40,402 bases of DNA, taken from Acidobacteriota bacterium (GTDB lineage Bacteria; Acidobacteriota; UBA6911; RPQK01; JAJDTT01). The first letter of the stretch is position 1. Every line of letters begins with the position of its first letter. The notes beneath the pieces were generated by a model. It was given only the letters and a program-made list of their open reading frames with translations, made no database searches and was not told where the DNA came from. The position numbers were made by a program, and so were the translations under genes. The stretch lies in contig JAJDTT010000218.1 of the NCBI GenBank assembly GCA_022827025.1, positions 1 through 40,402 of the forward strand, written 5' to 3'. Below are positions 1,713-23,283 of this stretch, one piece after another.

Positions 1713-3227
1713 ATGCGCGTAACCTGGCTTCGAATCTTGGCGTCGCTGGCCGTATCTGCGGCCGCGGCCGGCCCCTTCATTTCGGCAGGGGAGGCCACTT
1801 CCATGGAGGCCGTTGACATCGGTTCCCGGCTGGAACTGTTCGTGGACGACCACCTGATCGACAACATGGAGGGAGCGGAGATCCGATTTCACTCACCCTG
1901 GTCCGGCGGCACGGTCCTGGAATTCGATCGTCCCTGGGAGGGGAACACCAGTTGGCAATTGACCGTCTTCAAGGACGGCGACCTCTTCCGCATGTATTAC
2001 TTGGGCCGCACCGAACCGACCTATGCGAGGAAGGCCGGACTGCGGCCGGACGAGAAGCTCACACCCGATCATCCCAACTTCCTCTGCTACGCCGAAAGCC
2101 GGGACGGGATCCATTGGACGCGGCCCAATCTCGGCCTCTACGAGTTCAACGGATCCACCGAAAACAACATCGTCACCGCCGATCTTCCAGGAGCACCCCT
2201 GCTGGACACCCGGCCGGGAGTCGACCCGGCGATCCGCTTCAAGGCGCCGGGCGGAGTCGGCATCAATCCCCGATTCGGCCAGGCCAGCAAACGCTCGGTC
2301 GGCCTGGTGCTCTGGGTCTCGCCCGACGGGCTCAATTGGAAGAAGTGGCGGGAGGACCCTCTCTTCGTCACGTCGCTGCCCAATGCCTTCGATTCCATCA
2401 ACCTCCTCTTCTGGTCCGAATCGGAACAGCAGTACGTCTTCTACTTCCGCTACATGCTCCAGGACGTGCGCACCTTCGCCCGGACCACGTCCAAGGACCT
2501 CCTCGACTGGACCGAGCCGGTCCCCTGCACTTTCAACGGCAACGCCCGGCCGGTGGATCACCTCTACACGAATGCCGCGACGCCCTACTTCCGGGCTCCG
2601 CATATCTATCTGGGGTTTCCCAAACGGTTCCAGCCCTTGCGGCAGATCCACGACGACGCTCCCCGGCCCGGCATTTCGGAGACCGTCTTCATGACGAGTC
2701 GTGACGGGATCGACTGGAACGTCGTCCCGGAGGCGTTCATCCGCCCCGGGAGGCAAGAACGAAACTGGATCCACCGGACCAACAGCACGGCCGCGGGCGT
2801 GATTCCCATCATCAACGACGAGATGTCGATCTACGTGTCCCGCAACTACACCTACCCGTCCACCTACCTGGAGCGATTCGTCTTGCGCACCGATGGCTTC
2901 ACCTCCATCAATGCGCCCTATTCCGGCGGGGAATTCGTGACCAAGCCGTTCCGGTTCGAGGGGCGGGACCTGGTCCTCAACTTCTCGACCTCGGCCGTGG
3001 GCAGCATCCGAATCGAGGTCCAGGACCAGGACGGTCAACCCATTCCGGGTTTCACGCTGGAGGAATCGCCGGTCATCTTCGGCGATCACATTCAGAGGAG
3101 GATCCGGTGGAGCCGGCCGGGATTCCTACCGACCGATCCCATGAGATTCGACCGGTTGGCGGAAAGACCGATTCGGCTGCGCTTCGTCATGAAGGATGCG
3201 GATGTCTATTCCTTTCGGTTCAAGTGA
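1713..3227 (+). CDS. secreted five-bladed beta-propeller glycosidase-like protein
   Basis: A 504-residue protein with an N-terminal signal peptide: MRVTWLRI, then an Ala-rich hydrophobic core, with likely cleavage near residue 20-25. It therefore acts outside the cytoplasm. The mature part has repeated aromatic/Asp blade motifs such as SRDGIHW, SPDGLNW and SRDGIDW. These are typical of the GH32/GH43/sialidase-type propeller fold found in many secreted proteins of Planctomycetes, Verrucomicrobia and Acidobacteria. I cannot point to a proven catalytic triad, so glycoside hydrolysis is an inference from the fold. Translation starts at ATG 1713 behind GAGGAGTG. No partner gene adjoins it; the next frame downstream is a decayed HigB. 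Confidence 0.65.
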   Translation: MRVTWLRILASLAVSAAAAGPFISAGEATSMEAVDIGSRLELFVDDHLIDNMEGAEIRFHSPWSGGTVLEFDRPWEGNTSWQLTVFKDGDLFRMYYLGRTEPTYARKAGLRPDEKLTPDHPNFLCYAESRDGIHWTRPNLGLYEFNGSTENNIVTADLPGAPLLDTRPGVDPAIRFKAPGGVGINPRFGQASKRSVGLVLWVSPDGLNWKKWREDPLFVTSLPNAFDSINLLFWSESEQQYVFYFRYMLQDVRTFARTTSKDLLDWTEPVPCTFNGNARPVDHLYTNAATPYFRAPHIYLGFPKRFQPLRQIHDDAPRPGISETVFMTSRDGIDWNVVPEAFIRPGRQERNWIHRTNSTAAGVIPIINDEMSIYVSRNYTYPSTYLERFVLRTDGFTSINAPYSGGEFVTKPFRFEGRDLVLNFSTSAVGSIRIEVQDQDGQPIPGFTLEESPVIFGDHIQRRIRWSRPGFLPTDPMRFDRLAERPIRLRFVMKDADVYSFRFK

Positions 3228-3312
3228 GGGACCCGATCCGGCTGGCTGAGGGGAGCATAGCGTTCGCGGACACGGGGTATAGAGTGCCGGCGCCCAACAC
3301 GCCGATCCGAGA

Positions 3313-3495
3313 TTGCCCCGCAACCGTTTCGAAGCGTTCAAGGGTGGCCGCAAAGGCCTGTACAGCATCCGCATCAACGACCAGTGGCGGATTTGCTTCG
3401 AATGGCCCAACGGATCCCCCGGACCCGAGAATGTGGAGATTGTCGACAAACATTGGGAAAATCGCTATGATCGCACCCACAATCCATCCCGGTAA
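3313..3495 (+). pseudogene. higB: HigB-type RelE-superfamily toxin, truncated at the 5' side
   Basis: The C-terminal half is unmistakable: LPRNRFEAFKGGRKG followed by YSIRINDQWRICFEW and VEIVDKH. In HigB mRNA interferases this part follows about 40 residues of N-terminal fold. Here the frame is closed by a TAG at 3280-3282, and nothing between that stop and residue LPRN resembles the missing half. A few HigB-like residues (IAFADTG) occur just upstream in another frame, suggesting an internal deletion plus frame change. The frame overlaps the start of the intact antitoxin gene by 29 bases, the usual HigBA arrangement. Probably non-functional. Confidence 0.6.
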
Positions 3496-3721
3496 ACATG
3501 TCGCCGAGGAACTGAAAGATCTCAATATGAGCGCCGCCGCGCTTGCGCGCCGGCTCAAGGTTCCTACGAACCGCATCACTGAGATTCTGAAAGGATGGAG
3601 GGCCATTGCCATCGACACGGCCCTGCGCCTAGACCGCTTCTTCGGCACCAGAACGAAATTTTGGCTCAATCTGCGGAAGCTCTATGAGCTACGCCTTGCC
3701 GAGCAGAAAGTCAGCAAATAG
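3467..3721 (+). CDS. higA: HigA-type antitoxin, XRE helix-turn-helix
   Basis: This 84-residue protein matches the HigA family almost end to end: HPGKHVAEEL at the start, a helix-turn-helix (MSAAALARRLKVPTNRITEI), then TALRLDRFFGTRTKFWLNL and a basic tail. HigA binds and silences the HigB mRNA interferase and represses its own operon. ATG 3467 is chosen because it gives the family-typical N-terminus MIAPTIHPG; an earlier in-frame start would add residues foreign to the family. The toxin frame just upstream is degraded, so this is now effectively an orphan antitoxin. It marks the left edge of the accessory region. Confidence 0.85.
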   Translation: MIAPTIHPGKHVAEELKDLNMSAAALARRLKVPTNRITEILKGWRAIAIDTALRLDRFFGTRTKFWLNLRKLYELRLAEQKVSK

Positions 3722-4167: not shown

Positions 4168-5382
4168 ATGAAAGGAATGAAGTCTTTAATCTCAGCCCAA
4201 GAAAGCATAATCAAACAAGTCGGTGCCCCGGGAACCTTGCTCAAACGCCTCAAAGACAAGGAGGCTCGAGGCAAGTTGGCCACGTTGTTGGGCTCGACGC
4301 TACCCCCGGAGCTACGTCTTCGTGCACTATTAGCCCTAGGCAAACAGCCTTCACCTGATCTTCTTTCTGAAGACAATATTCGCCGTTCGTTGACGGCGAA
4401 GGATTGCCTCAGTCGGATTGCACGCCTCACTGTCAAGACATCCGTTCTTGAGGCCAGCGAATCGCTCCGATCGGCTGCCACATTGGCACAGACTGCCAGT
4501 GAAGATGACCTTCCTGTCGCGATCGGGAAATTTGCAAGAATAGTTGAAAAATGGGACACCAATAGGGAAAAGGTCAAGGTCAGCGACCAGACGATTCTCG
4601 AGTTCATTCGGCTGACCGATGCTTTGTGTCAAAAGTCGTCTAAGGTGCGGCATCGATACTTCAAGAAAAAACGTGAACTCTTTTTGCGTTTGGCCCAAGT
4701 TGGCGCTCGTTGGGCCGTCAGTTCCAACAAGCCTGAACAGTTGGCAGGAGCTCTTCGATTGCTAGGAAGCGTCGAGAAATTCGCGTCACTCTCCATCCAG
4801 GACGAAATGGACGACTCCGAACAATTCGCCGTAGTTATCCGGGATTTGAGGCAAAAGAGCATCGACTACATGATTTCAAGTGCCTCTTCATCAGACATCT
4901 TGACCTTAGAGAGACTTGCGAGATCCCTGCTTCGGGGTCATTTTAGTCGAGAGGTCACCGCCGCGACGCTTAATGAACTATACGAGCAAAGATATGCCTT
5001 TGACGAAGAAATACAGGCCACACTCGCTTCTTTGTCAGGACGTCAACCTACGCGTACTGGATTTCATGCTTTGGATGCTAGTTTGGAACAAACAAAGATG
5101 CTACAGCTGGCGAGCATCCTGCTACGCGCATGGAAGGTCCGCCACGAAGGACTAGGCTCAAGCGAGGTCTTTGAAGAAATGCAATCGGTGCTCCGCAACT
5201 TCTTTGATTTACGCCTTATTGATTGCGTCGATGAATCCCAAACTTACAATCCTCGAATTCACGAATTCGTCCACGGCGAGAATCGCACAGCAACCGTGCG
5301 CGTCATCCGTCCGCTAGTTGAACAGTCGCACGATCCGTCACGTATTATCGTAAAGGCATTGGTTAGACCAGTGCTCGACTAG
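4168..5382 (+). CDS. protein with GrpE-like C-terminal domain, first gene of the cassette
   Basis: 404 residues. The first ~300 are largely helical, with no family I recognise. The last ~70 resemble the beta domain of GrpE, the nucleotide exchange factor of Hsp70: YNPRIHEF at residues 360-367 matches the GrpE F/Y-D/N-P-x-x-HE signature, followed by TVRVIRPLV and RIIVKALVRPVL, which parallel the final strands of GrpE. The next gene, ten bases downstream, encodes an Hsp70-like ATPase, which strongly supports the reading. I infer that it is a dedicated exchange factor or adaptor for that ATPase, with a greatly enlarged N-terminal part (classical GrpE is about 200 residues). A GAGGA motif lies about a dozen bases before ATG 4168. 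The 15-base string at 4914-4928 also occurs upstream at 4035-4049, which may be chance. Confidence 0.65.
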   Translation: MKGMKSLISAQESIIKQVGAPGTLLKRLKDKEARGKLATLLGSTLPPELRLRALLALGKQPSPDLLSEDNIRRSLTAKDCLSRIARLTVKTSVLEASESLRSAATLAQTASEDDLPVAIGKFARIVEKWDTNREKVKVSDQTILEFIRLTDALCQKSSKVRHRYFKKKRELFLRLAQVGARWAVSSNKPEQLAGALRLLGSVEKFASLSIQDEMDDSEQFAVVIRDLRQKSIDYMISSASSSDILTLERLARSLLRGHFSREVTAATLNELYEQRYAFDEEIQATLASLSGRQPTRTGFHALDASLEQTKMLQLASILLRAWKVRHEGLGSSEVFEEMQSVLRNFFDLRLIDCVDESQTYNPRIHEFVHGENRTATVRVIRPLVEQSHDPSRIIVKALVRPVLD

Positions 5383-5392
5383 AGGTTAAGAT

Positions 5393-6748
5393 ATGGAAAA
5401 CGACAAGTCACATTTAGGCATTGACTGGGGAACTCACTCGGCAAAGTGGGCTGTTCGGTTAGCGGGTACAAAAGAGATCGCTCCTAAGATGCCATTATAC
5501 AGTTCCGACCTTGCTCGAACAGGAGACAGCCTGACTTTCTCCCCGGATTCTACAACTATCGATGAGGATTCTCTGATAACGTCGATCAAGAGCCGATTGA
5601 TTCAGGACCCTCTCGGCCAAGACTTCTGGGATTCTGATCGGCGAGACACGGGGACCTCCCTGGGACAGGCGGTAGCATTCAGCCTATGCTGCCTTTTGAA
5701 TGATGCCGTGTCCCATATCACACGAAACGTTGGTGCGTATCCTATTGAAATTGGGTTCTCGTTCCCGAATTGGCTAGTTGAGGACACGAAAGCAGCAAGA
5801 GTCGCCGTTAGACATTTCCGCCAAGCCGTTGGAGTGGCCGTCAACCTTCTCGGTCACGTGCCAACCAACGAGCTACCTCTGCCCCAAATGAGTTTCCCGA
5901 TCATTCGATGGAAGGATCTGGTACGTCAAGTCTTGCCATGCTCTAATGAAGCGGACGGCAACGACGAGACGTTAAACATCGATAACATGACCCAAAAGGT
6001 GTTTAGCTTGCCAGCGCACGATGTGAAATGGAGCTTCCTTGTGGAATCCGGCGCGGCCGGTCTCCCGTACCTACGGGACATGGATACCAGCATCAACCTC
6101 GTACCTGGGGCCCCTGGCTTGGTAAAACTTCTCGTAGTTGATGTGGGCGCAGGTTCGACTGACGTGGGCTATATGTTGCGGGTCCAGAATCGGAACACGC
6201 AACGGGAAAATTTCTACTACTTTATGCCTGCGTCAAGCTTTCCCGAAGCTGGGAGTGTGCTTACACAGGAACTGAAGAAGTATAGTAGTGCTAGAAATGA
6301 TCCAATAACAGACCGGGAAGCCGAGTCACGCAAGCTCGAAGATACAAGCTGGGCAAAACTTCCATTTGTTGCTTCATGGCAGAGACGAATCTGTGAACAC
6401 GTTAGAGTGTACGTCGAAGGTATTCCAGATGAAAGATGGTTGCCTCTGCCCGTGCCATTGAACATTATAATAACAGGTGGATCGGGCCTCGTTCCAGGTT
6501 TAGCAAACGCTGTCAAAAATGCCGTTGTAGAAGCACTTAAGCGTTCATACTTCGGACAAGCGACGCAGCGAGAGGTCGCCGTCTCTGGAAGCTATATTCG
6601 TGATCTACCTTTTCGGATGGACGCTGCGTATGCCCAGCGTGCAGTTAGCATTGGAGCAAGCGACCCCGAAAAGCCAGGTTTTCAATTCTTGCCCAATTTG
6701 GATCCACCGATCAATGAGAGAATTCAAGCACGACGCCCCTGGGTATGA
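5393..6748 (+). CDS. Hsp70/actin-fold ATPase lacking a substrate-binding domain
   Basis: 451 residues forming only the nucleotide-binding half of an Hsp70-type protein. Phosphate-1 motif is LGIDWGTHSAKW (residues 8-19), phosphate-2 is VVDVGAGSTDVGY (248-260), and the adenosine motif is IITGGSGLVPGL (359-370). Chaperone DnaK is about 640 residues with a beta-sandwich peptide-binding domain and helical lid; both are absent, and the frame ends soon after the ATPase core. It is therefore more likely an ATP-driven switch than a general chaperone. It follows the GrpE-like gene by ten bases and is surely co-transcribed with it. The 318-base gap after it is the largest inside the cassette. Family confidence is high; biological role is inferred from context. 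Confidence 0.8.
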   Translation: MENDKSHLGIDWGTHSAKWAVRLAGTKEIAPKMPLYSSDLARTGDSLTFSPDSTTIDEDSLITSIKSRLIQDPLGQDFWDSDRRDTGTSLGQAVAFSLCCLLNDAVSHITRNVGAYPIEIGFSFPNWLVEDTKAARVAVRHFRQAVGVAVNLLGHVPTNELPLPQMSFPIIRWKDLVRQVLPCSNEADGNDETLNIDNMTQKVFSLPAHDVKWSFLVESGAAGLPYLRDMDTSINLVPGAPGLVKLLVVDVGAGSTDVGYMLRVQNRNTQRENFYYFMPASSFPEAGSVLTQELKKYSSARNDPITDREAESRKLEDTSWAKLPFVASWQRRICEHVRVYVEGIPDERWLPLPVPLNIIITGGSGLVPGLANAVKNAVVEALKRSYFGQATQREVAVSGSYIRDLPFRMDAAYAQRAVSIGASDPEKPGFQFLPNLDPPINERIQARRPWV

Positions 6749-7066
6749 TTTAGCAAGAACGGAAACTTGAACTGCTGGCCGCCGAAAGAGTATCAAGAGA
6801 CGTCAAAGGCAAGCCTGGACGGTGTTTCCAGCGCGTTGCCGCGGACGTTCACTTGGTGTGCGCCCAACAGGAAACGGCTGAACCAACAAGATCGGGGTAA
6901 ACATCTGATCGAAAAAACGCCGGCGTTTGAGCGTAGACAACTGAAGCCCACACGCAGGCAGTTATGCGTGCGGCTTCCTTCTCTGCCGACGAATCGCCTC
7001 CCGCTAAAACACCCGTTTCCCAACCACCACCCGAACAGAGATCAAAACCGCAAGGAGTAGCACACG
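6749..7066 (+). promoter_or_regulatory. 318-base gap inside the cassette with a perfect palindrome
   Basis: No convincing gene is present. A 14-bp perfect palindrome, AAACGCCGGCGTTT, lies at 6915-6928, about 140 bases before the next gene. A second hairpin (CACGCA/TGCGTG, 8-base loop) lies at 6951-6970. The other cassette junctions are mostly tight, so this gap may carry an internal promoter and an operator that lets the ATPase/nuclease half be controlled apart from the Hsp70/GrpE half. That is inference; no clear -10 is identified. Confidence 0.35.
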
Positions 7067-8197
7067 ATGTTCGATCATCTCTGTCTACAACGATGGCCCT
7101 TCGTCGTGGTGCCCGAACCGGCGCGCTGCGATTTCATTGCGGACAGAAAGCAGGTACGCGAAGATCTAGAAAAGCTCCTGCGCAATTTGTCACGGCAAAA
7201 TGCCTCTTCCATTCATCCAATATGGTCCTGGTTCGGTGCTGGCAAGACGCACACCCTTTACTATCTCTCAAACCGCGCGGACGAGATACGTAGGCAAGGC
7301 ACCAGTCACCTTAGAACCATATACAGTGAATTTCCCCGAAGCCCCCGCTCATTTGTGGATGTTTACAAAAGTTTCGCGCTTAGGCTGGACCGGAAAGTAT
7401 TGTACGATGCTTATCTTGAGATTTGCACATCCCGGCATGCCGCGTGTCTGGAGCAGAACCTACTCGCCACTTCATCTGATCTCGTGGCCATGCTTAAGAT
7501 CCTGGTATTTGGGGAGTCGGCCGATCAGGACTTGGCAATGCGCTGGGTACGGGCAGAACCCCTGCGGGTCGCCGACTGTCGTAAGCTTGGCATATCCCAG
7601 AAGATCACGTCGTCTGAGGATTCGAGCCGAGTTCTCATCGGCCTCGTGCGGATGTTCGGCCTTACTGCTAGCTCACAGAACCAGATCAATTCTCGGCTGA
7701 TCTGGCTGCTGGACGAACTCCAGAGAATCGATCATTTGCCGCCTCGATTACGTAACGAGATTAACATTGGTCTGCACTCGACATTCAACGCGTGTCCGAC
7801 TGGCTTCAGCATGATTTTATCGTTTTCCGGTCAACCTACGGAAGCACTTCCCGCTTGGTTTAGCCCCGAGCTTAAGGACCGTATCGGAAGAACAAAGGTC
7901 ATGATTCTACCGCCTATGCAAACAGAGGACGCACTGAAATTCGTCGAGGATATCCTGGCGCATTGCCGTCCAACCGACAACTCTCATGTCGATCCCTATT
8001 TTCCATTTTCGGAAGATACATCCCGGACTATCATCGAAGATATCAAGGAGCACGGCGAACTGAAGCCGCGTGCAATAATGCAAGCCTTTCATGCCGTATT
8101 GCTGGAAGCGGACCCTCAGATCGAGGACAAGAAAATGCAGGTCGTTTCCCCCGAATTTGCAAAGACAGTTTTGGCAGAACTCGTGCAACTTGATTGA
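7067..8197 (+). CDS. AAA/ORC-like P-loop ATPase 1 of the cassette
   Basis: 376 residues. The P-loop is SWFGAGKTH (residues 54-62), in which the first glycine of GxxxxGKT is replaced by Ser54. Walker B is LIWLLDE (211-217). The rest looks like an AAA+ helical lid, and the C-terminus may be a small helical or winged domain. It shares the ..GAGKTHTL and LLDE signatures with the ATPase encoded at 8760, so the two are probably related and may form a hetero-oligomer. The start is ATG 7067 behind AAGGAG. A 59-base gap separates it from the phospholipase-D-type gene. No fused nuclease domain is visible. The ATPase call is firm; its job (loading, sensing or signalling) is inference. Confidence 0.75.
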   Translation: MFDHLCLQRWPFVVVPEPARCDFIADRKQVREDLEKLLRNLSRQNASSIHPIWSWFGAGKTHTLYYLSNRADEIRRQGTSHLRTIYSEFPRSPRSFVDVYKSFALRLDRKVLYDAYLEICTSRHAACLEQNLLATSSDLVAMLKILVFGESADQDLAMRWVRAEPLRVADCRKLGISQKITSSEDSSRVLIGLVRMFGLTASSQNQINSRLIWLLDELQRIDHLPPRLRNEINIGLHSTFNACPTGFSMILSFSGQPTEALPAWFSPELKDRIGRTKVMILPPMQTEDALKFVEDILAHCRPTDNSHVDPYFPFSEDTSRTIIEDIKEHGELKPRAIMQAFHAVLLEADPQIEDKKMQVVSPEFAKTVLAELVQLD

Positions 8198-8256
8198 CTG
8201 ATAACCGGCCACGAGTCTGGTGACTGCAATAATAAACGAGGGTAAACTGGGACAAC

Positions 8257-8748
8257 ATGCAAAGAACTAACTTTCTTCAATTGCGCTACGGCGCCGGAAA
8301 CGTTATCGAACCTTTTCTCAGCCGGCTATATATAGAAAGGAATCCTAAGACAGTATATTGGGTGTCGCCTTGGCTAACGCATATGAACTTCCGTACCGGG
8401 ACTACAAAGAAGCTCCTGAAGAAGCTGCAACTACACGGGGTCAATCTCGTAATCATTACACGCGAACCGGAGCTGGGTAGTCCACACCAAACATTTATCA
8501 GGGATGCCAAGGAGTTGCCGACCGCTTCGATTTTTTACATGGCTATGCTTCACGCAAAATTCTATCTCGCCGCTACGAGCGAACGGCGTTACGCCCTGCT
8601 TGGCTCGGCCAACATGTATGAATGGTCAAACAGGTCTTACGAGATGGGCGTTGTCATCGAGTCTCGTGGCGAAGGAGAGACCTTGGTGGACAAGCTGGAG
8701 GAACTCGCAATTGAACTTCGGGTTACGAAATACACAACCAAAGCATAG
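8257..8748 (+). CDS. small phospholipase-D-type protein with a single HKD motif
   Basis: 163 residues. One HxK motif is present at LHAKFYL (His99, Lys101), followed by LLGSANMYEW (Asn119), the usual second part of an HKD site, and then SYEMGVVI with the conserved Glu. Phospholipase-D-type enzymes need two HKD sites, so a protein of this size would act as a homodimer, as in Nuc-type and BfiI-type nucleases. In a cassette of DNA-directed ATPases a nuclease role is the natural reading, but this is inference. It has no signal peptide, so it should be cytoplasmic. The gene sits between two AAA-type ATPases; 11 bases separate it from the next one. This is the only nuclease-like catalytic site I can see in the cassette. 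Confidence 0.75.
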   Translation: MQRTNFLQLRYGAGNVIEPFLSRLYIERNPKTVYWVSPWLTHMNFRTGTTKKLLKKLQLHGVNLVIITREPELGSPHQTFIRDAKELPTASIFYMAMLHAKFYLAATSERRYALLGSANMYEWSNRSYEMGVVIESRGEGETLVDKLEELAIELRVTKYTTKA

Positions 8749-8759
8749 AGGACAAAATA

Positions 8760-9938
8760 ATGGTCGCACCACTTAACCAAAGATTCTGTCTGCAAGGTGA
8801 CAGGAAAAATTTTTCGATCAATTTCCGAGTCAATCGAAAGGATCGTGCAGCGTATTTTGGCAAGACAAAAATAAACGACGAAATTGCCGAGTCCATACGC
8901 GAGCGCTACATGATGGGCACTCAGCCGAAGAAATATATTTACGGACAATATGGTGTCGGTAAGACGCATACCTTGTTCAATATAAAGTATAAGCTTGAAG
9001 AAAGCGCCGAGGCAAAGGCGACTACGGACTATCAGGTCAAGTGTTGTTTTATAGATGCGGAGTTTAAGGAAAGAACAAACTATAACTATCTACATGCGCA
9101 AATGATGGAAGCGTTGACGCTGGAAAAGATAAAGGAAGTCATAGACGAATATCTGGCGAGAAACGCAGGACCGGCTCTCGAAGAAAAACTCAGAAACGAC
9201 TTTGGAGACGCGAACATAGCGCGTGCAATTCGAGCTCTAGGATTCGCGGGTGAACCGATCACTTTGTGGAAGTGGTTATGCGGCGGGTCGCTATCCGCAG
9301 CTGAACTCACTTCGTACAATCTGACAAAGAACATGGACACCATATCGGAAATGTATCGGGTACTGGTAGGAATCATGAGGCTCTTTGTAAATAAGGGAAT
9401 CTATTACCTGTTTCTTCTGGATGAAATGGAGGGTCTGATCAACATCCGCAATCGGGACTGCAGAGCATCATTTCACGACGCACTTCGGAAGCTTGCCGAC
9501 GACGACAACGGTGTTGTCGGTTTCATCGTATCTATTTACGCGCTGCAGGAGGATGAGATTCCGGACTTCGTGTTTACGGAGGACATCCAGACACGTCTAA
9601 ACAAAGCTAACATTCACCATCTTGAGTACCTAGCCCATGACGATGACGTGCGGCAATTCCTGAAGGACCTTTTGGCGCTTGTTATTGATGAGACCAAAAG
9701 AAAGGATAAGGAGAGACAAGGGCATATACCGGCCAACTTGGAGTACTACCCCTTGACTGACGAAGCGATAGACGAATTTGTGAACTTGGCAATCGGCGCG
9801 CCGACCGCGAGTCTACCCCGAAACTTCATATCGGCCCTTAACGAGGGAGCGGTCCACGCCGCCCGTCGCGATTCCTATGTCATAGATACGGAAGACCTAA
9901 CTGCAGCGCAGGCGATCTTCACAGAAGATTTGTTTTGA
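8760..9938 (+). CDS. AAA/ORC-like P-loop ATPase 2 of the cassette
   Basis: 392 residues. A complete Walker A motif, GQYGVGKTH, spans residues 62-70, and Walker B is YLFLLDE (216-222), followed by EGLINIRNRD. A sensor-like strand and helical lid follow, with an end rich in acidic residues. The P-loop is followed by the same HTL residues as in the ATPase at 7067. The two differ in that this one keeps the first P-loop glycine. The start is ATG 8760 behind AGAGGA, 11 bases after the phospholipase-D-type gene, so translation is likely coupled. Codon use is notably A+T-rich for this window. Probably a partner of ATPase 1 and of the HerA-like gene that follows 23 bases later. Confidence 0.75.
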   Translation: MVAPLNQRFCLQGDRKNFSINFRVNRKDRAAYFGKTKINDEIAESIRERYMMGTQPKKYIYGQYGVGKTHTLFNIKYKLEESAEAKATTDYQVKCCFIDAEFKERTNYNYLHAQMMEALTLEKIKEVIDEYLARNAGPALEEKLRNDFGDANIARAIRALGFAGEPITLWKWLCGGSLSAAELTSYNLTKNMDTISEMYRVLVGIMRLFVNKGIYYLFLLDEMEGLINIRNRDCRASFHDALRKLADDDNGVVGFIVSIYALQEDEIPDFVFTEDIQTRLNKANIHHLEYLAHDDDVRQFLKDLLALVIDETKRKDKERQGHIPANLEYYPLTDEAIDEFVNLAIGAPTASLPRNFISALNEGAVHAARRDSYVIDTEDLTAAQAIFTEDLF

Positions 9939-9961
9939 GTGATCATTGACGGGAGGACTTG

Positions 9962-11356
9962 ATGCTTCGTTATAGAGTGTTGCCTAGGCTCCGGGACGAA
10001 GACGGGGTGATCTGTCTGGGGTGCGATCGAGCGAGCATGAACGGGACCACTCATGTCAACCTCGGAAGATTGAGCGAACAAGGTCCACGCTCGAAAGTAG
10101 TCTTGGGGTTCGCGCGCGAACTCGTAACCGGCATCTTCGGGCAACGTGGGTCTGGGAAATCATACACTCTTGGCACAATCATTGAAGCCTTAGCCACAAA
10201 GGACGTCGGGGCCAACATAGGTATTAATGCCAACGATCGTGCCGTTCTGTTGCTGGATACGCTTAATATCTACCCGTACACGGCCGTTCCAGTATCACAA
10301 ATTCCCGATGAGGCAACGCGCAAAACGTTATCCGCGAAAATTGCGAGTTTCAGGCTCAAGGAAACAGATATCGCAGTCAGAACATACTATCCGGAGGGGC
10401 ATCGTCAACAATTTTATACCTCGAGATACCAACCCTTTGCATTGAACACTTCGCTCATTCGGCCCGAAGATTACGCGCATATATTCGAGATCGATCTCTT
10501 CAAAGATCCGACCGGACACCTCTTGCTGGCTGCATACGACGCGGTAAAAAATACTGGATACAATTTCAATTCCGCAACTCGTGCAGGAAAGGACGAAGCG
10601 GGTCTTTCGGAACTGATCGAATATCTTTCCGATGAAACGAATACTACCGGGAGTTTTGAACGCACGACTGTAAGAGCTCTTCGGAGCCGTCTTCAGATTC
10701 TGGCCCATGATGAACTATTTTCATCGAGGCCAACCTCGCTGTCGTCAATTATTAGGCCCGGCGAGGTAACAATTCTCTTGCTGGGGCAGCTAGCCGGTCC
10801 AATGCGCAGCCTCACGGCTGCCATCCTTGTCAGACAGTTATTCAATTTGAGATCCACCGCTTCGGAAGCAAACAAAATCCTTCGGTTAGACAGCACGATC
10901 TCGCAAGACGAACGTGCTGCAGCGCTTAACACAATAGAAACATCTCCACCCCGCACGCTGTTGTGCATTGACGAAGCGCAGGGATATGCCCCGCCCTCGA
11001 AGGCCAATCCGTGTACATCTATACTGATCCAATATGTGAAGGAAGGCAGGAACCATGGCCTGTCGCTGATGATCACCTCACAGCAACCGGGCGCTATTCA
11101 TCCGGAGATTTTATCGCAGGTCGATTGCGTCGTGGCCCATCGTCTAACCGTTCAATCGGATATTCATGCGGTTTTGCGTAATGCTAAAGGCCGGTCCCCT
11201 GAGAGGATGTCTAGCGGTTCGCAAAAGCTAACACTTCATGACATGCTTCGAGAACTCGCACAGGGGCAAGTATATATCAGCCACGGTGACACAACACGAG
11301 CTTTCATATCCGAGATTCGACCGAGAGTGACAGCTCACGGTGGAATAGAAGGGTAG
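9962..11356 (+). CDS. HerA/FtsK-like DNA translocase ATPase
   Basis: 464 residues of the HerA-type hexameric helicase/translocase family. Walker A is GQRGSGKS (residues 60-67), Walker B is TLLCIDEAQ (333-341), the sensor-like strand is MITSQQP (371-377), and HRLTVQSD near residue 393 is followed by an Arg-rich tail. A HAS-barrel-like N-terminal region precedes the P-loop. Such enzymes pump double-stranded DNA and usually work with a nuclease; here the candidate partner is the phospholipase-D-type protein. ATG 9962 is preferred to the adjacent TTG at 9959 because the GGGAGGA binding site at 9951-9957 is better spaced from it. The downstream gene starts five bases after the stop. HerA-like ATPases recur in known defence systems. 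Confidence 0.85.
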   Translation: MLRYRVLPRLRDEDGVICLGCDRASMNGTTHVNLGRLSEQGPRSKVVLGFARELVTGIFGQRGSGKSYTLGTIIEALATKDVGANIGINANDRAVLLLDTLNIYPYTAVPVSQIPDEATRKTLSAKIASFRLKETDIAVRTYYPEGHRQQFYTSRYQPFALNTSLIRPEDYAHIFEIDLFKDPTGHLLLAAYDAVKNTGYNFNSATRAGKDEAGLSELIEYLSDETNTTGSFERTTVRALRSRLQILAHDELFSSRPTSLSSIIRPGEVTILLLGQLAGPMRSLTAAILVRQLFNLRSTASEANKILRLDSTISQDERAAALNTIETSPPRTLLCIDEAQGYAPPSKANPCTSILIQYVKEGRNHGLSLMITSQQPGAIHPEILSQVDCVVAHRLTVQSDIHAVLRNAKGRSPERMSSGSQKLTLHDMLRELAQGQVYISHGDTTRAFISEIRPRVTAHGGIEG

Positions 11357-11360
11357 TGAT

Positions 11361-12554
11361 TTGAGAGTCGCCCTCACATTCCGTCTGTACATGATGCGGT
11401 ACGGGATTGCTCTTCTTGCGTCGTCGTTCGCGAGTCACCGACGACCTGCGTTCTCGGAAGACATTTCTCAAAAAGTGTCGGCCTTCTTGCAAGACAGACG
11501 GGAGGTTCCGAAATACAGTTTGGAGTCGTTCAGAGAATACGTGTTTACCAAGCCTGGCTCACGGCGGTACACGTCGCTTCGACGGAAGTTGAGAAAAGGA
11601 CACCCATTCAGGGTTGAGCGCCAGGACTTGTTGCTGTCGGATTCGAGGTTGCCGTCCTCCGTAGGAGCATTAACACGAGACTATTTCGATGATGCACTAA
11701 CCCTCGCGCATTCGCTGAAACTCGTAAAGAAAGATCACAATCTCCTGCTCGCGCGGGGACGCCTGAGTTTGTCCACCGGCTGGCTCTCGGACGATCCCTT
11801 CCACCTTCGTTTCCTTGACTCGCTCTATCTTGGACTCTGGCTTCTAGACATTGATTGTGACTGGCTTTGGGCATTTCTTGTGCAACTTCCCTCCAATCCA
11901 GAGTTTGAGATTACAGTAGAGAATCGTGTCGAACTTTTGCTGAAGAGTTGGAAACATATTTTATCCGCGCGGCAGCTTCGGTCCGGCCACCCAAAAAATG
12001 CCAAGGTTCGTACTAGGCTTAACGATCTTGTTAAGATTACTGAGCGCAATGTCCGCTACAAGTTAAATCTCGGACAACCATGGTCGTGGTTTCTTATTCC
12101 TCGCCTCGAACTCTTAGTGGATGCCGGAGTCCTGCGAAAGAGGGAACGGCACGGCCTCAGAGGATACAGCCTGACTCACACGGGTCGCAAAATGCGCTCC
12201 GTTTGCGACCCGAACAAGAGTGGGGCCGATCTCATCCGTTGCTATTTTCGGTGTCGCGATATGGAGCGTCGTCCGTTCACGGATAGTATCGAATGGGAAT
12301 CCATTGGAAAGAAATTAAGAGTCGCCGCTCCGGAACTCAGAACATCGGTTGGCTATTTCCCAATTTTCGAAACCGCCTCCGCGCTATGTGTATCGCAGTT
12401 CGTGGACCCGGGGCGCTCTGGTGGACCAATTTGGGAGATCGAAAGCGTCAAGAAAAAATTGTGGGAGGAATCTCAATCGTCTTCGCCGAGGGTAAGGCTT
12501 GCCATCAACCGGTACGGGCAAATTTATGCCTTCAAGTTGGAGGAAGGCAGTTGA
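11361..12554 (+). CDS. uncharacterised protein with a probable winged-helix segment, last gene of the cassette
   Basis: 397 residues that I do not recognise as a family. The N-terminal part is basic (RRYTSLRRKLRKG region). Around residues 250-285 a segment reading PRLELLVDAGVLRKRER followed by GYSLTHTGRKM looks like the recognition helix and wing of a winged helix-turn-helix. Trp-rich stretches occur in the middle. No nuclease or NTPase motif is visible. The TTG start at 11361 lies five bases after the HerA stop and behind GAAGGG; an ATG at 11391 is a possible alternative. Tight linkage to the HerA-like gene argues that it is a DNA-binding or specificity subunit of the same machine. It ends convergent to the Ssp genes, 83 bases away. 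Confidence 0.6.
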   Translation: MRVALTFRLYMMRYGIALLASSFASHRRPAFSEDISQKVSAFLQDRREVPKYSLESFREYVFTKPGSRRYTSLRRKLRKGHPFRVERQDLLLSDSRLPSSVGALTRDYFDDALTLAHSLKLVKKDHNLLLARGRLSLSTGWLSDDPFHLRFLDSLYLGLWLLDIDCDWLWAFLVQLPSNPEFEITVENRVELLLKSWKHILSARQLRSGHPKNAKVRTRLNDLVKITERNVRYKLNLGQPWSWFLIPRLELLVDAGVLRKRERHGLRGYSLTHTGRKMRSVCDPNKSGADLIRCYFRCRDMERRPFTDSIEWESIGKKLRVAAPELRTSVGYFPIFETASALCVSQFVDPGRSGGPIWEIESVKKKLWEESQSSSPRVRLAINRYGQIYAFKLEEGS

Positions 12555-12637: not shown

Positions 12638-13474
12638 TTACTTGTGACACGCGAGACAGACCTTCGACTGTCCATAGAGATCGTCAATGTCGAGAGGTCC
12701 GCTGTTCGGCCGTAGCGGGTTGGGCTGAACCTTGGATCGCATCCGAGCTAGTCGCTCTCTGTATTCATCTCTGATCTGCTTGATGCGCTCGGGTCGCTCG
12801 AGCTCGTCCAAGGATTCACCCTGGCTCCAGGTGAAGGGCGACCCATGTTCGACCGCATTCTTTTCATAAGCCTTCGCCTCTTCGAAGGCTTCCGGGTGGT
12901 GCTCCTTGAGCCTCACCCACTCGATCTTCTGCTGGAAAAAACAAAAGGTGCAGCCGCTACGGGTTCGCCACGAGTAATATCTGGGCAGGCCAAGCCCGGC
13001 CCCGTCCAGAATTTCAAGGACTCCAGACTTGTCGATCCCTGCTTCCTTGAATGGAAGCTTAACGATTAGGCCATCGTGCTTGGATGAGTACCCTTTCCGG
13101 TACTCTTCGTCGCTACGGATCGCAACGTAGCTATAGATCGTGGTGCCTTTTGCCAGCAGCGGGCGCAGCCAGTGCTCGAATGGCCGAAGCTTGAGCTGCC
13201 GCGTGCACCAGCGGGTCTGTGGCGAAGGAAGGAAGTCGTTGTACTGCTTCAGCCAAAAGTCGAAATCCCGATCGGGGTTTAGCCTGAGAATAGGCTGCCC
13301 GAGAAACCCCTCCAGTCGCCCGAGGTACTCGTAAACCTCAGGTAGCTCTTTGCCAGTGTCGGTAAAGTAATACTCGATCTCAAGTTCGGAATGGTGCTGT
13401 CGCATATAGACGGCAAGCGCCGCACTGTCCCGACCTCCGGAGAGACCAAGAACATGTTTCACAGAACAGGTCAT
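12638..13474 (-). CDS. sspD: SspD-like PAPS-reductase-fold ATP pyrophosphatase (DNA phosphorothioation)
   Basis: 278 residues of the PAPS reductase/ATP pyrophosphatase fold. The PP-loop SGGRDS lies at residues 12-17, and TDTGKELPEVYEYL follows as in this family. Cys pairs that could hold an Fe-S cluster or sulfur are seen at WCTRQLK, CTFC and the terminal CLAC. In SspABCD-type systems this enzyme activates DNA for sulfur insertion. ATG 13474 is preferred over the TTG at 13477; an AGGAAGAG binding site lies upstream. It is the last gene of a minus-strand operon after sspC, with 21 bases between. The C-terminal CxxC close to the end is a feature worth noting. DndC is a related alternative, but the DUF4007 neighbour favours the Ssp type. 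Confidence 0.8.
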   Translation of the reverse strand: MTCSVKHVLGLSGGRDSAALAVYMRQHHSELEIEYYFTDTGKELPEVYEYLGRLEGFLGQPILRLNPDRDFDFWLKQYNDFLPSPQTRWCTRQLKLRPFEHWLRPLLAKGTTIYSYVAIRSDEEYRKGYSSKHDGLIVKLPFKEAGIDKSGVLEILDGAGLGLPRYYSWRTRSGCTFCFFQQKIEWVRLKEHHPEAFEEAKAYEKNAVEHGSPFTWSQGESLDELERPERIKQIRDEYRERLARMRSKVQPNPLRPNSGPLDIDDLYGQSKVCLACHK

Positions 13475-13495
13475 CAAGAAGCAGCTCTTCTCTTC

Positions 13496-16400
13496 CTATT
13501 TCATTTCTGCAGACGGTGAATCTTGCATGTAGCGCGCACTGAGTTCCGCCAAGGCCGCCAGAATGATGCTGGGCCGGATAGTGTCGGCTTTCTCCAATGT
13601 GGCAGCGACACGCTCGATGAGATAGTTGACAGCTGGTCGGTCAGATTCGGCGATGTCGAATTCCTCCAGCATTGGTGTTGGCCTACCATTCATCCCAACC
13701 ACAACAGCCATAGCCTGCCGTTTCTCTGAACGCCCTTTTACGCGCGCATACGTCTCGACCCGCAGAAACTTCTGCGCCATGTCAGCTAGCTCTATTGCAG
13801 CCTTATCGATATCTGGATCGACCCAGTCGCGCGGTGGCTTGCTTGCAGCTAGGCTGGCGATACCCTCGAAGCTATCGTTGCCAGCGTCGAATTGGGAAAG
13901 CCTTCCGACAAAGGCGTTCAGCCGGAAGTCACCGGCAAGCTGCCTTATATTGTCGGCGCGATCGCGTAATTCCGCAATCGACTGCGGTGAGATGTTCGGG
14001 ACCTTTAACTCGGCAAGCATTAGCTCCCGTAACCGCTGGAGCATTTCAGGATACGCCTGTATCAATTCCTTAAGGCCAGCGCGCACGCTTACGATCACAC
14101 GGCGGAGGTCTTCCTCTCTGCCAAGAACAACATTCTCTCCCAAAGTTGCCGGAATATCGTCGAACAGGAACTTGTTAGGATCATGGGCACGCTTGAAGAC
14201 CTCGCGGATATGCACGGCATTGGTCGACAAGCGCATCGTTCTTTTTGTCCATTGTGGGAGCTGATCGTAGATCGAAACAAGCCCGCACGCCACGTCGATG
14301 GGCTCTAGATGAGCGAGTTTGTTGTTCCTGTCGAACTCGCATACGATTTGCGCCATATCAGACAGGAGGCGGCGGGACACATCGGTTAGATCCATCCATC
14401 GTAACTGGATCGTGGTGGCATCCTTTGCAAGGTAATCCACATCGACATCGTCGAACTTCGCCCTAAATACCCCCTCACGATAGACGGCGAGATTGTCGCG
14501 TTGCGACAGCACAAACGCTACAGCCAGCAATGGCATCAGCCCATCCTTTACTCCAAACGGCGCCTTGCGCCATATTTGGAACAATTCGGAAACAGCGATC
14601 GTGCGGCTACCATGTTGCTTCAAATACGCGTATGCGGTCTCCCACATGGCGGTCAGTCGGCACGGATCGTAACCACTCGCTGTAGGCGAAACGAACCGCC
14701 AGCGATTGGCAACCTCCGCATAGAGGCCGGTCGATTCCAATAACGAGGCAAACAGGCCGCCTTCGGCCGGAAAACCCTTGATCCCCAGCCGCGGTGCCCC
14801 TTCGTTCAAGACCATTTTCCGCAGCAGGATGTTCTGTGCGGCTATAGCGTTGCTCGAAGGCTTCTGGCGGTTTAACAACTCATTATGCAAACGCGGGCAC
14901 GCGCAGAAACGATGATCGGCCAACTCGGATGCGATGCAGTTTAGATCCGCTTGACGCAATCGCTTAGGATGGTGATTCTTCCGGAACCACAGAGCATTGT
15001 CAAACGCTTTCTGTAGTTCGGTTTCCAGCAGCGCCTGTAATGCCGCTAGCCGGGAACAGACTTCACGGCGGGCAACTGCATCCCCGGCCAATTCGGGATG
15101 ACCATTGCGCACGCTGTCGAGGGCGAACATTTCGCGCGCCAACGGTACGACTGCCCATGACCTCTTGGAAATGCCGACCACGACATCCCAATCGCCGCTG
15201 CGACCCGCCGCCTTGCGGCAAGCATTCTCTGCAAGTTCCTGGCTTTCGCCCTCAGTCGGGATCCCCAGCAAGAACTGACCGATCTCATCGTGCTCCGGCC
15301 TAAAATCTGCCGCAAAGGCGTCCAACTCACTTACTGGAATGATATTCACGTCAAACCATCGGAGCGCACCGGTCACGTGCAAGTGGCGCTTGGCGAGAAT
15401 CGGCTGTAGGCCAGCTAGAGTCTTGAGAGCTGTGAAATCTATTTCGTCGATATCCTCTAGTGCCGCACGAACAGCGCGATCGATGTCGAAATCGCTCCCA
15501 GCAAAGATCGCGTGAGCATTGAGATATTTCTTAAAGATCGTAAAGGACCCGCCATCAAGCTGGCAAAGTGCCTTCTGGAAACGCTTTGCTGATGTGTCAG
15601 GGAAACAGCTTTGCAGCAGATCAGAATTAGCGACCAGACCGGATCGTTCCTTGAAAAGATCAATCACCGCGATTGTCTTGAGCAGGTCGATGTGAAGCGC
15701 ATCGCTGCCGGTGACTTCGCAGCGTTCTAGCGCTTCGGCGGCCACCGCCCAGCGGTGCCCGTCCGGAGAAGCCAGAATGGAAGGCTCTAGATTGGCGTGC
15801 AAATAATCCCAAAGTCGGTCCGGACCATATAGCGAACCATCGTCAGTGTGTTTCAGGAAGTCTTGGAAACCTCGCGGCTCTGATGAATTGAGAAAACCGA
15901 AAATGCTGCGCTGGTTCTGTCCAAATCGGCGCCGTGATATTGGCCCCAACAGACAGGCAACGACAGGATGCAACGGCCAGCATGCTTCCAGCATGGACGC
16001 TAGGCGCGCCGCTTCGCCTGTACGGTCGCGGTGCACGATACGGGCAACCTTAGTCGCTAGCGCACGATGTTGCTTGGGGCCGGGGGCGCTCTCGATCGCG
16101 CGGGATATCAGTTCGATCTGTTCCTCACCGGACGTATTTACGGCAAGATCGATGAAGCGCCCCTGAATCTTCGTCCATTCGTCGCGCGTTTCGTGAGACA
16201 GACGATGCGCGTACTGCTCGAACGCCTGATGCAGCACACCGATGATTAGTAAACGTCCGTTACTACGAGAAGCTGCTTCGGCAATCTGCTGGAGTACATA
16301 AATGTCGGACCCATCCTGTGCGGCAGCTTCCAAAAACTTTCCCATCTCGTCGATTAGCAGAATCAGACCCCCATAAGTCTTAGGCTCTTCGGCTGCAGTG

Positions 16401-16864
16401 GTTAGCGCCGCGATCAGGTTGGTTTCCGTCCAGCCGCCGCGCGGAAGGCGTCGAAGCAGCGCGGCCTTCCGCACCGCCTCGCCCATGACGACGATGGGGT
16501 CCTCCCGTCTACCGACGACCGGGACGATGCGCCATCCCTTTGAACCTGCCGGCAAAGCCTCTCGAAGCGCATTGGTCGGCTCACGGCCAAGCAGCCTCGC
16601 TGCCTGTTTCTGTAGTCCAGCGCTGCCGTTCAACAGTGCAGCCAACACGACAACAAGGCTGGATTTGCCGCTACCGTAGGGTCCAGTCCAAGTGAACGCG
16701 CCTTGCCGATTTTCGGAGACATGTTGCGCCATTGTGACAAGAACATCAACGGAGGATTGCGGGCACACAAATCCCTCAAGGGCGGTCCCTTCGCCAAGAT
16801 CGGTGTCGATACGTATTGACCGCTGGAAACGTCGGGCAACGCTGACGTGCTCACTTAATGCCAT
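13496..16864 (-). CDS. sspC: SspC-like large P-loop ATPase of the phosphorothioation module
   Basis: 1122 residues. Walker A is GPYGSGKSS (61-69), preceded by FTWT. Walker B is LILLIDEMGK (167-176). The remaining ~900 residues are mostly helical, with no nuclease or methylase motif that I can see. The ATPase in SspBCD complexes is of this kind: a large helical protein with one N-terminal P-loop domain, whose ATP hydrolysis is needed for strand-specific sulfur modification. The start ATG 16864 overlaps the last ten bases of sspB, so the two are translationally coupled. The assignment rests on the P-loop plus position between DUF4007 and PAPS-reductase-fold genes rather than on sequence detail. 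Confidence 0.75.
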   Translation of the reverse strand: MALSEHVSVARRFQRSIRIDTDLGEGTALEGFVCPQSSVDVLVTMAQHVSENRQGAFTWTGPYGSGKSSLVVVLAALLNGSAGLQKQAARLLGREPTNALREALPAGSKGWRIVPVVGRREDPIVVMGEAVRKAALLRRLPRGGWTETNLIAALTTAAEEPKTYGGLILLIDEMGKFLEAAAQDGSDIYVLQQIAEAASRSNGRLLIIGVLHQAFEQYAHRLSHETRDEWTKIQGRFIDLAVNTSGEEQIELISRAIESAPGPKQHRALATKVARIVHRDRTGEAARLASMLEACWPLHPVVACLLGPISRRRFGQNQRSIFGFLNSSEPRGFQDFLKHTDDGSLYGPDRLWDYLHANLEPSILASPDGHRWAVAAEALERCEVTGSDALHIDLLKTIAVIDLFKERSGLVANSDLLQSCFPDTSAKRFQKALCQLDGGSFTIFKKYLNAHAIFAGSDFDIDRAVRAALEDIDEIDFTALKTLAGLQPILAKRHLHVTGALRWFDVNIIPVSELDAFAADFRPEHDEIGQFLLGIPTEGESQELAENACRKAAGRSGDWDVVVGISKRSWAVVPLAREMFALDSVRNGHPELAGDAVARREVCSRLAALQALLETELQKAFDNALWFRKNHHPKRLRQADLNCIASELADHRFCACPRLHNELLNRQKPSSNAIAAQNILLRKMVLNEGAPRLGIKGFPAEGGLFASLLESTGLYAEVANRWRFVSPTASGYDPCRLTAMWETAYAYLKQHGSRTIAVSELFQIWRKAPFGVKDGLMPLLAVAFVLSQRDNLAVYREGVFRAKFDDVDVDYLAKDATTIQLRWMDLTDVSRRLLSDMAQIVCEFDRNNKLAHLEPIDVACGLVSIYDQLPQWTKRTMRLSTNAVHIREVFKRAHDPNKFLFDDIPATLGENVVLGREEDLRRVIVSVRAGLKELIQAYPEMLQRLRELMLAELKVPNISPQSIAELRDRADNIRQLAGDFRLNAFVGRLSQFDAGNDSFEGIASLAASKPPRDWVDPDIDKAAIELADMAQKFLRVETYARVKGRSEKRQAMAVVVGMNGRPTPMLEEFDIAESDRPAVNYLIERVAATLEKADTIRPSIILAALAELSARYMQDSPSAEMK

Positions 16865-17826
16865 CGCGCCGCCTCGCTTCGAAATAATCGATCATAGCTC
16901 CGAGGCAACCATGACAGCCTTGAATCCTCATCATCGATCTCTATATTTCGTACGACCTGCTTCAAACCGGCTGTCTCAGACCACTGTAATGCCCCCTTGG
17001 TTATTTCATCGAGCATAACGAGACGGTCGGCAACATCATTTTCATCGAAGGCGAATACGCGACCCGGCCCGCCGGGCGCATGGGCAATGGCCTCAAATGC
17101 GAGAGTCGCCGTGTTCTCGTAATAACGATTCCAAAAATCGATCAGTGCGAAGACAAAAACACCATCACTCAATGTCGATTTGGGGCCTCGAACGAATCGG
17201 AAGCCATCTCTTTTTCCGATTGCTTTGATGAGCCCCAACTCTGTTAGCGGTGACTCAAGAGCGCCGTCGTGTCCGGTTATGCGAGAGGGTTGCCGACCGA
17301 CGTACGTCCGGATGAAACAAGCAACATCGTTCTTGATTGTTATCGTTGCAACGCGGGACCAACCTCGGTCCTTTACGAGCCGGCTGAGCTTTTTTTTCAA
17401 ACCGTCACGTTCAAAGGTGATCGCCGGATAGTGGCTAAACGCCCAGAACCATGTCGTCTTTTCCGATTGCGCCGCCAACTGCCAATGAATCAACCAAAGT
17501 GTCGCCGGATGCTCCATATATGGATCAAGTCCCCCTGCACTGAATAGTTTTCGGCCGAATTGCGTCGTCCGTACGGAATGGATTTTCGGTTCCGTGATTA
17601 CGCCCGCTGCCTTGGCCCAATGGCGCATCGAGGCCACCATGTTCTTGCCCACGCCGAATCGTGCGATGGCTTCGTCGCCCCAACACGCGCCTCTGTTTTC
17701 GTCGTCGTGTTCGGTTTCGGCGACGCGGTCATACACCTTCTTCAGCCACCCATAGCGTAGCGGGAAAGTTTCGTGCCCCGAAAACCGCGGCCTATAGGTG
17801 TCCCGGAAAAGAGGCCCGCTTGGCAT
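16855..17826 (-). CDS. sspB: SspB-like DUF4007 protein, putative nickase of the phosphorothioation module
   Basis: 323 residues that match the DUF4007 pattern. FSGHETFPLRYGWLKK at residues 15-30 is the N-terminal signature; FGVGKNMVASMRHW (57-70), a helix-turn-helix-like element, follows; and the C-terminal block reads FALIDFW, PGRVFAFDEND and TAGLKQVVRNIE. From the literature on SspABCD, the DUF4007 member SspB is the DNA-nicking subunit; I see no textbook nuclease motif that would prove this here. ATG 17826 lies behind GGAGAT. It is the first gene of a minus-strand operon and is divergent from the cysteine desulfurase gene, the usual Ssp layout. Confidence 0.8.
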   Translation of the reverse strand: MPSGPLFRDTYRPRFSGHETFPLRYGWLKKVYDRVAETEHDDENRGACWGDEAIARFGVGKNMVASMRHWAKAAGVITEPKIHSVRTTQFGRKLFSAGGLDPYMEHPATLWLIHWQLAAQSEKTTWFWAFSHYPAITFERDGLKKKLSRLVKDRGWSRVATITIKNDVACFIRTYVGRQPSRITGHDGALESPLTELGLIKAIGKRDGFRFVRGPKSTLSDGVFVFALIDFWNRYYENTATLAFEAIAHAPGGPGRVFAFDENDVADRLVMLDEITKGALQWSETAGLKQVVRNIEIDDEDSRLSWLPRSYDRLFRSEAARWH

Positions 17827-20967: not shown

Positions 20968-21057
20968 CAGGATGCAGTGTGCCTCGCACAGAAGGCGGAT
21001 GCTGAGCGGCAGCCCCTTGGGATCCGCGATCCGCGAAAGGGCGTGGGTGAACGCGTC

Positions 21058-21383
21058 AAGGAATCAACCGTTTCTTTTTCAACCCGGTAATGAATCGATC
21101 GGTTTCTTGTCTACTCCGGCCCGGGGACCGGAGAAACCCACCCGGCAAAACCGGGCGAAGTCCTTGCAGATGCACCTTGATCACACCACGAGAGAAGTTA
21201 TATTTCGTAGATCCAGAACGAGATATGTAGAGAGATCCTATGTCCCAGGAAACGGGAAAATCGTGGAGAGGCCGGCACACCAAATAGGGCATCCGTGGAA
21301 GTTCCGCAAGTAGTCAGTCGACGAATGGGTCCGATCCGGCGGAGCGGATGTGTCCAGGGGGCGCCCGGCATGAATGACCGGCG
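21058..21383. other. break point of the Fic gene and promoter region of the AlbA-type gene
   Basis: This ~326-base stretch should hold the missing 5' part of the Fic gene, but translations in all frames show none of it. It has a lower G+C patch around 21180-21250. The next gene starts at 21384 with no strong ribosome binding site. I see no repeat copy here, unlike most other module junctions. Confidence 0.4.
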
Positions 21384-22622: not shown

Positions 22623-22632
22623 ACGGACAAGG

Positions 22633-22663
22633 GCAGAGTAGCCCTGACCGCATCGGTGGAAAC
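22633..22663 (-). repeat. 31-nt exact repeat, orphan DUF433 fragment
   Basis: Identical to 19834-19864 within the intact DUF433 gene. It is followed by GGTGGAAACCGC and repeat copy C. The GGTGGAAACCGC string also precedes copy E near 25010, tying the two elements together. Confidence 0.75.
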
Positions 22664-22683
22664 CGCGTAATGTCCTTGCGCTT

Positions 22684-22709
22684 GCGAGAAGGGGACAGTC
22701 ACTGTCTTT
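22684..22709 (+). repeat. module-boundary repeat, copy C
   Basis: Reads GCGAGAAGGGGACAGTCAC, then TGTCTTTT. It lies between the AlbA-type gene and mazE, 35 bases before the mazE start, so it may also form part of the mazE leader. Confidence 0.55.
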
Positions 22710-22744
22710 TCGACTGTCTTTATAGATACAAGAGGAGACTGTCC

Positions 22745-23249: not shown

Positions 23250-23283
23250 CAAATCGAAGGCGCCACCCCGGGTAATGAGAACT

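Follow-up and report, generated by a model that had tools for sequence, protein, structure and literature searches.

A PLD-AAA-HerA gene core beside phosphorothioation and methylation genes: a candidate restriction arm in an Acidobacteriota genome

Introduction

Which genes act as restriction partners where a phosphorothioation module stands without a familiar one? Most sspBCD loci lack a known restriction partner, with 2,211 of 2,678 carrying neither sspE nor sspFGH (PMC8092258). A concrete candidate is provided by the 40,402-nt contig JAJDTT010000218.1 of an Acidobacteriota bacterium (GCA_022827025.1), whose full length is here termed the window and supplies the coordinates. Seven plus-strand open reading frames (ORFs; g1-g7, 4168-12554) converge there on sspBCD. 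A first-pass annotation, made from the sequence alone, described them as a chaperone-like, AAA, PLD and HerA cassette of no named kind, acting either as an effector of the phosphorothioate (PT) mark or as a stand-alone defence system. The five genes g3-g7, hereafter the core, probably serve as the restriction arm of a defence system tied to DNA modification, here by Ssp, a reading that is held with moderate confidence. Its best description is as a new variant of the HerA/FtsK-capture modules with exchangeable modification partners, rare in the sampled phyla.

The core and the adjoining Ssp module

The seven ORFs and their convergence on sspBCD proved real. The gaps between them measure, in order, 10, 318, 59, 11, 20 and 4 bp; the junctions, previously described as mostly tight, are not all so, and the 318-bp gap parts g1-g2 from g3-g7 in a 2+5 arrangement. 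This spacer (6749-7066, plus strand) contains a 97-aa TTG-initiated ORF without a Pfam match. Two core genes encode related AAA ATPases (HHalign, 99%), and the motifs attributed to them were found in both: g3 (AAA1; 7067-8197, plus strand) has the Walker A sequence WFGAGKTHTL and g5 (AAA2; 8760-9938, plus strand) YGVGKTHTL, each followed by an LLDE Walker B motif. AAA2 is BrxD/Orc-like (BrxC_BrxD, E = 1.6e-6) and weakly matches orc1/cdc6 and Hda models. Between them, g4 (8257-8748, plus strand) encodes a PLD-superfamily nuclease with one HxK...SxN...E active-site half (PLDc_2, E = 1.1e-7), in which H99, K101, S117, N119 and E129 are invariant across the three loci that carry the core. The earlier single-HKD label is borne out for these residues and fails for the D. 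The HerA assignment of g6 (9959-11356, plus strand), a HerA/FtsK-type DNA translocase, is likewise sound (DUF87, E = 4.3e-11; mad8, E = 1.6e-16). The last gene, g7 (11361-12554, plus strand), encodes a fast-evolving, putative winged-helix DNA-binding protein. A family search with g7 gave no direct match, and the hint of a winged helix comes from a weak HTH_45 match (E = 0.0087) in a homologue at locus L012, described below; HHalign comparison of g7 with SspB/DUF4007 gave no support for a relationship.

A gap of 83 bp separates the end of g7 from the 3' end of sspD, the first of three minus-strand genes with strong PADLOC matches. These are sspD (12638-13477; PAPS-reductase-like sulfur transferase; PADLOC SspD, E = 1.4e-134), sspC (13496-16864; BrxC-like ATPase; PADLOC SspC, E = 0) and sspB (16855-17826; DUF4007, E = 5.6e-83; PADLOC SspB, E = 1.8e-106), all clear orthologues. 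An sspA-like cysteine desulfurase gene with SAHK and GSAC motifs (17963-19150, plus strand), divergent from sspB, completes the sspABCD set. Because the orthologues are intact, including the motifs of SspA, SspC and SspD, SspABCD is predicted to phosphorothioate host DNA. The GC content of the 4-20 kb block that holds the cassette and the ssp genes is 47-56% (maximum 57.8%), below the 59-68% of most of the flanks, and the block therefore looks acquired, as an island.

The cassette occupies a position that is filled by a restriction partner elsewhere. In plasmids of Sinorhizobium and Ca. Tenderia, SspFGH is convergent with sspD in the same manner, and the closest plasmid SspB (58%) comes from the SspFGH locus of Ca. 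Tenderia. No homology to SspF, SspG or SspH was found when the cassette and core proteins were compared by blastp with two SspFGH sets (best E = 0.19). No SspH-like partner was found elsewhere in the 98.8%-complete genome, where an SspH query retrieves only a cellular FtsK, nor an SspE-like one, the sole DUF262 match in the genome being a 368-aa protein on a different contig. A domain search of the cassette proteins found no SspE-type domain (DUF262 GTPase plus nickase). The cassette thus fits the open partner slot noted for sspBCD loci (PMC8092258).

Recurrence of the core beside modification genes

Relatives were sought in about 2,000 genome searches, several of them over the same genomes, and in one restricted GTDB pattern scan. 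AAA1 was present in two of 386 same-phylum genomes, the window's own included. In genome G148 of this phylum (locus L010), genes for AAA1 (43% identity, E about 1e-118), PLD, AAA2, HerA and a 354-aa protein are followed by a methylase gene (469 aa; N6_N4_Mtase, E = 3.1e-9), and the core stands in a prophage context, with integrase and head maturation protease genes on either side. On an IMG/VR contig (L023), the PLD, AAA2, HerA and g7 homologues keep the window's order and are followed by a 1203-aa Eco57I/N6_Mtase protein, then by a possible STAND protein, a PC4 protein and an Mrr_N/HARE-HTH protein; a tail tape-measure gene marks the phage context. Similarity to the window by blastp is strongest for HerA (7e-92 in L023, 1e-46 in L010) and AAA2 (4e-60 and 5e-23, respectively), and extends in L023 to the g7 homologue (1.6e-11) and PLD (1.8e-6). 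In a tree, HerA of the window, L010 and L023 group together with support of 96/97, and the sister of this clade is the HerA of a BREX-Related Capture (BRC)-like locus of Haloplanus (98/96); SIR2-HerA, NurA-HerA and SspH fall separately.

A more distant locus in the same phylum links part of the core directly to Ssp. In genome G240 (L012, 8158-16350), a g7 homologue, a gene that is PIN-like by motif and a related AAA gene come after sspB, sspC and sspD on the same strand. The g7 homologue aligns with g7 at 90.6% HHalign probability (E = 1.3e-6; score 52 against a shuffle maximum of 17). This operon is possibly another unnamed Ssp-linked effector in its own right.

Beyond these loci the core appears rare. 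When genome contigs were scanned with the AAA1 alignment, the sole match was a truncated 64-aa AAA1 relic, 73% identical to the window protein and near Fic genes, in a Rhodothermales genome (L013, 10001-10195). Nothing matched on plasmids by tblastn with AAA1, AAA2, the Hsp70-like protein g2, L010 AAA2, L012 AAA or the L012 g7-like protein, and viral-contig scans with AAA2 alone, AAA1 or g2 found nothing. Also rejected were AAA matches in genomes G093, G096 and G348, which come from different systems with either tandem AAA genes and a helicase or an AAA on its own.

These results bear on two claims of the first-pass annotation. Co-occurrence of all seven genes was not found and the core recurs without g1-g2, so the proposed seven-gene unit does not stand; what is inherited together is the core. 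Homologous cassettes were expected to adjoin PT or other defence genes, and every core locus found, like the AAA/g7 locus of G240, does have a DNA-modification gene beside it: for methylation at L010 and L023, and for phosphorothioation in the window and G240. The idea of a partner for the PT mark is favoured by the SspFGH-like position, by the failure to find an SspH- or SspE-like alternative in the rest of the genome and by the operonic association of AAA and g7 with sspBCD in G240, but the core is not PT-specific, its two best relatives standing beside methylases. The core is better seen as partnering a DNA-modification mark that can be exchanged than as a dedicated PT effector.

The Hsp70-like and helical accessory genes

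The first two genes had been called GrpE-like and a substrate-binding domain (SBD)-less Hsp70, and both calls survive only in part. The 451-aa g2 protein (5393-6748, plus strand) carries phosphate-1, phosphate-2 and adenosine motifs in the order of ASKHA (Hsp70/actin-superfamily) ATPases, namely IDWGTHS (residue 10), VVDVGAGSTD (248) and IIITGGSGLVP (358), by patterns fitted to g2 itself, and leaves no room for an SBD. Its segment ESGAAGLPY was aligned by HHalign to NEPTAAALAYG of DnaK with a score of 23.5, barely above the shuffle maximum of 21.9, and Pfam HSP70 gave no match even at E <= 10. On these motifs, g2 is a putative Hsp70/actin-fold ATPase. No convincing relative was found in 376 genomes of the phylum and none on plasmids or viral contigs; weak matches (E about 0.009), found in loci of G103 and G195 that look unrelated, were set aside.

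The 404-aa g1 protein (4168-5382, plus strand) is predicted to be all-helical, and its GrpE-like label derives from a nine-residue motif near the C-terminus, YNPRIHEFV, which resembles FDPxxHEAV of GrpE and arose in 1 of 100000 shuffles, the motif having been picked post hoc. A PF01025 search of its own genome finds two true GrpE genes and not g1, the HHalign score against GrpE is below those of shuffles, and Pfam gives nothing at E <= 0.1 (at E <= 10, HEAT_2 at 0.35). A single-sequence AlphaFold model of g1 is helical with low confidence; AlphaFold predictions made without relatives had pLDDT values of 33 (g2) and 50, too poor for a fold search. On plasmids, the sole place where g1 was searched singly, tblastn found no homologue. 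Both genes are absent from L010 and L023. Hsp70, GrpE and SBD-less Hsp70 do occur in conflict operons (Kaur et al. 2020; PMC7159879).

Relation to known systems

In agreement with the earlier view that the gene combination has no name, no named system was matched in the libraries and papers searched, and the cassette matched no complete system in PADLOC, Pfam or NCBIfam. Its closest counterparts in content are the sets of HerA/FtsK, Orc-type AAA, nuclease and winged helix-turn-helix (wHTH) genes proposed as anti-invader 'capture' systems (Rakesh, Aravind and Krishnan 2024; PMC10853773). Common to both are a HerA/FtsK motor, an Orc/BrxD-like AAA, a nuclease and a fast-evolving, putative wHTH protein, all within one operon, and a link to modification. 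The capture systems have a restriction endonuclease (REase), whereas the cassette has PLD and matched no REase model, and their Orc/Cdc6 AAA carries an inserted inactive REase that hidden Markov models did not detect in the cassette AAA proteins. Two AAA genes and the accessory pair, one Hsp70-like and one helical, set the cassette further apart. The main text of that paper contains none of the terms 'Hsp70', 'phospholipase' and 'PLD'.

With SspABCD-SspFGH, the cassette shares the Ssp genes, a convergent block after sspD, an ATPase and an FtsK/HerA-type motor, but it differs in its separate HerA and PLD nuclease, as well as in the absence of significant similarity to SspF, SspG and SspH noted above. 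The HerA of BRC systems (PMC12839542) is the closest sister of g6 at 27% identity, and DUF4007 is present here as SspB, while PglZ, DUF6079, STAND and TGT are lacking. The gene set of the Haloplanus locus is that described for BRC systems (PMC12839542); on this plasmid (L003, 1293-13700), QueC/QueE/QueD-type genes adjoin the BRC-like set (BREX ATPase, PglZ-like, HerA and GNAT). Among MADS proteins (PADLOC mad1-8), mad8 resembles g6 and mad2 the L023 methylase, but the cassette proteins match no other mad model. DISARM and Dpd also tie a PLD nuclease to a DNA-modification system; the cassette lacks DrmA/DrmB and a YprA helicase, and its PLD resembles DrmC weakly. In a Dpd-like context on a Haloferax plasmid (L028, 7013-13071), TGT-type genes are followed by a BREX ATP-binding AAA with 22% identity to L023 AAA2 (1.9e-12). 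The GTPase (GAP1-N2) conflict systems (PMC7159879) include Hsp70 plus GrpE, some with an SBD-less Hsp70, as suggested regulatory add-ons, but the cassette has no GTPase, tubulin, DnaJ or FNIII gene, and its g1 and g2 have diverged too far to be recognized by Pfam. The Hsp70 systems of CoCoNuT were rejected as a match, being built on McrB/McrC, which are absent from the cassette.

Proposed mechanism and alternative explanations

From the observed gene content, core synteny and homology, and co-location, a scheme may be inferred in which every functional step is a prediction. The core would inspect DNA and destroy that which lacks the mark. The g7 protein may contact DNA or read the mark, the two BrxD/Orc-like AAA ATPases would act as ATP-dependent sensors and loaders that, with g7, license HerA, and the HerA ring would pump captured unmarked DNA past the PLD nuclease for cleavage. 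Because each core locus and the AAA/g7 locus adjoins a modification gene of differing chemistry, the core is read as a restriction arm whose marks can be exchanged. Since methylase partners act protectively, the PT mark is more probably protective than activating; the rule is more likely to be 'protected if modified', known from SspFGH/DndFGH, than 'activated by PT', known from SspE. Whether the core is specific for PT is an evenly balanced matter. The g1-g2 pair, an ATPase and possible nucleotide-exchange partner, would be an accessory peculiar to this locus, with a possible role in setting an activation threshold or controlling assembly. Gating by this pair is rather unlikely, and an Hsp70 switch is speculative; if real, such a switch would be unusual in a restriction system. 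It is similarly doubtful that PLD-AAA-HerA-wHTH constitutes a new, mark-agnostic class of restriction arm acting on phosphorothioation or methylation marks, here also chaperone-switched by the Hsp70-like/nucleotide-exchange pair. The same core beside methylases would show the cutting machinery to be independent of mark chemistry, which bears on how a translocase-nuclease complex discriminates self from non-self.

Several observations weigh against a modification-linked restriction arm. The sample is small, with three core loci and one distant AAA/g7 locus, and Ssp in two of the four. The PLD and the 354-aa g7-like protein of L010 are too diverged for blastp support against the window, the latter reaching 11.6% HHalign probability (E = 0.0026) and a blastp value of 0.002 to L023. 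The PLD protein g4 is without the D of HKD, and g1 and g2, having no relatives, have a role in the system that co-occurrence does not support. Convergent genes share no promoter, so that core and ssp may simply be neighbours within a defence island, with AbiE, Fic and other genes close by. On the last point turns the possibility of a stand-alone defence of the HerA-capture type that needs no self-mark, with AAA and g7 sensing, for example, replication or packaging intermediates and PLD as the effector. DndFGH has been argued to act apart from its modification genes (PMC10853773), the partner modification gene varies between core loci, and the core's GC of about 50% is slightly below the 54-55% or so of ssp, so that acquisition may have been separate. 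The modification gene beside every core locus and the G240 AAA/g7 locus argues the other way, and this explanation is considered unlikely.

An improbable alternative is that the core is not defensive at all and that motor, AAA loaders, wHTH and PLD process a mobile element's own DNA in partition, transfer or a packaging-like prophage function. Both relatives in phage contexts, L010 and L023, and weak terminase/FtsK phrog matches of HerA would suit it, but no phage genes were recognized around the window cassette, and the neighbours (methylases, STAND, Mrr_N and Ssp) are typical of prophage-borne defence cargo. For the accessory pair, there is nearly an even chance that g1-g2 is a separate two-gene stress or regulatory unit placed beside the core by chance, given the 318-bp spacer and its absence from L010, L023 and the other searches. 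Against this, the pair shares the strand and low-GC block of the core, and Hsp70-GrpE pairs are known as conflict-operon add-ons (PMC7159879).

Neighbouring genes and other Ssp loci

Around the block, the ORFs next to the ssp genes at 20215-24951 are Fic-like, Schlafen/ATP-binding-like and AbiEi/AbiEii-like and make up a defence island. Directly upstream of the cassette, a HigA-like helix-turn-helix stretch (3395-3721) lies inside an ORF at 3107-3721, and a second cysteine desulfurase gene (27043-28245) is located beyond the low-GC block.

Plasmid-borne ssp genes have other neighbours. After sspBCD, a Pannonibacter plasmid (L042, 15992-25629) encodes a DEAD/DEAH helicase, an ATP-binding protein and a PLD protein, possibly a further Ssp partner of the PLD type. 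A Sphingomonadaceae plasmid (L043, 3208-15525) has sspABCD, then a DEAD helicase, an AAA ATPase and another ATP-binding protein, with SspE and SspFGH absent from the annotation. In a Ca. Chlorohelix plasmid (L045, 12832-28876), a gene annotated as a sensor histidine kinase and a large hypothetical gene lie between sspC and sspD, with SspF- and SspG-like proteins and an FtsK/SpoIIIE-domain gene further on. In a plasmid of Thermomicrobium roseum (L044, 13932-28861), sspBCD stands immediately upstream of a BREX-like PglZ/BrxL cluster that includes another DUF4007 gene.

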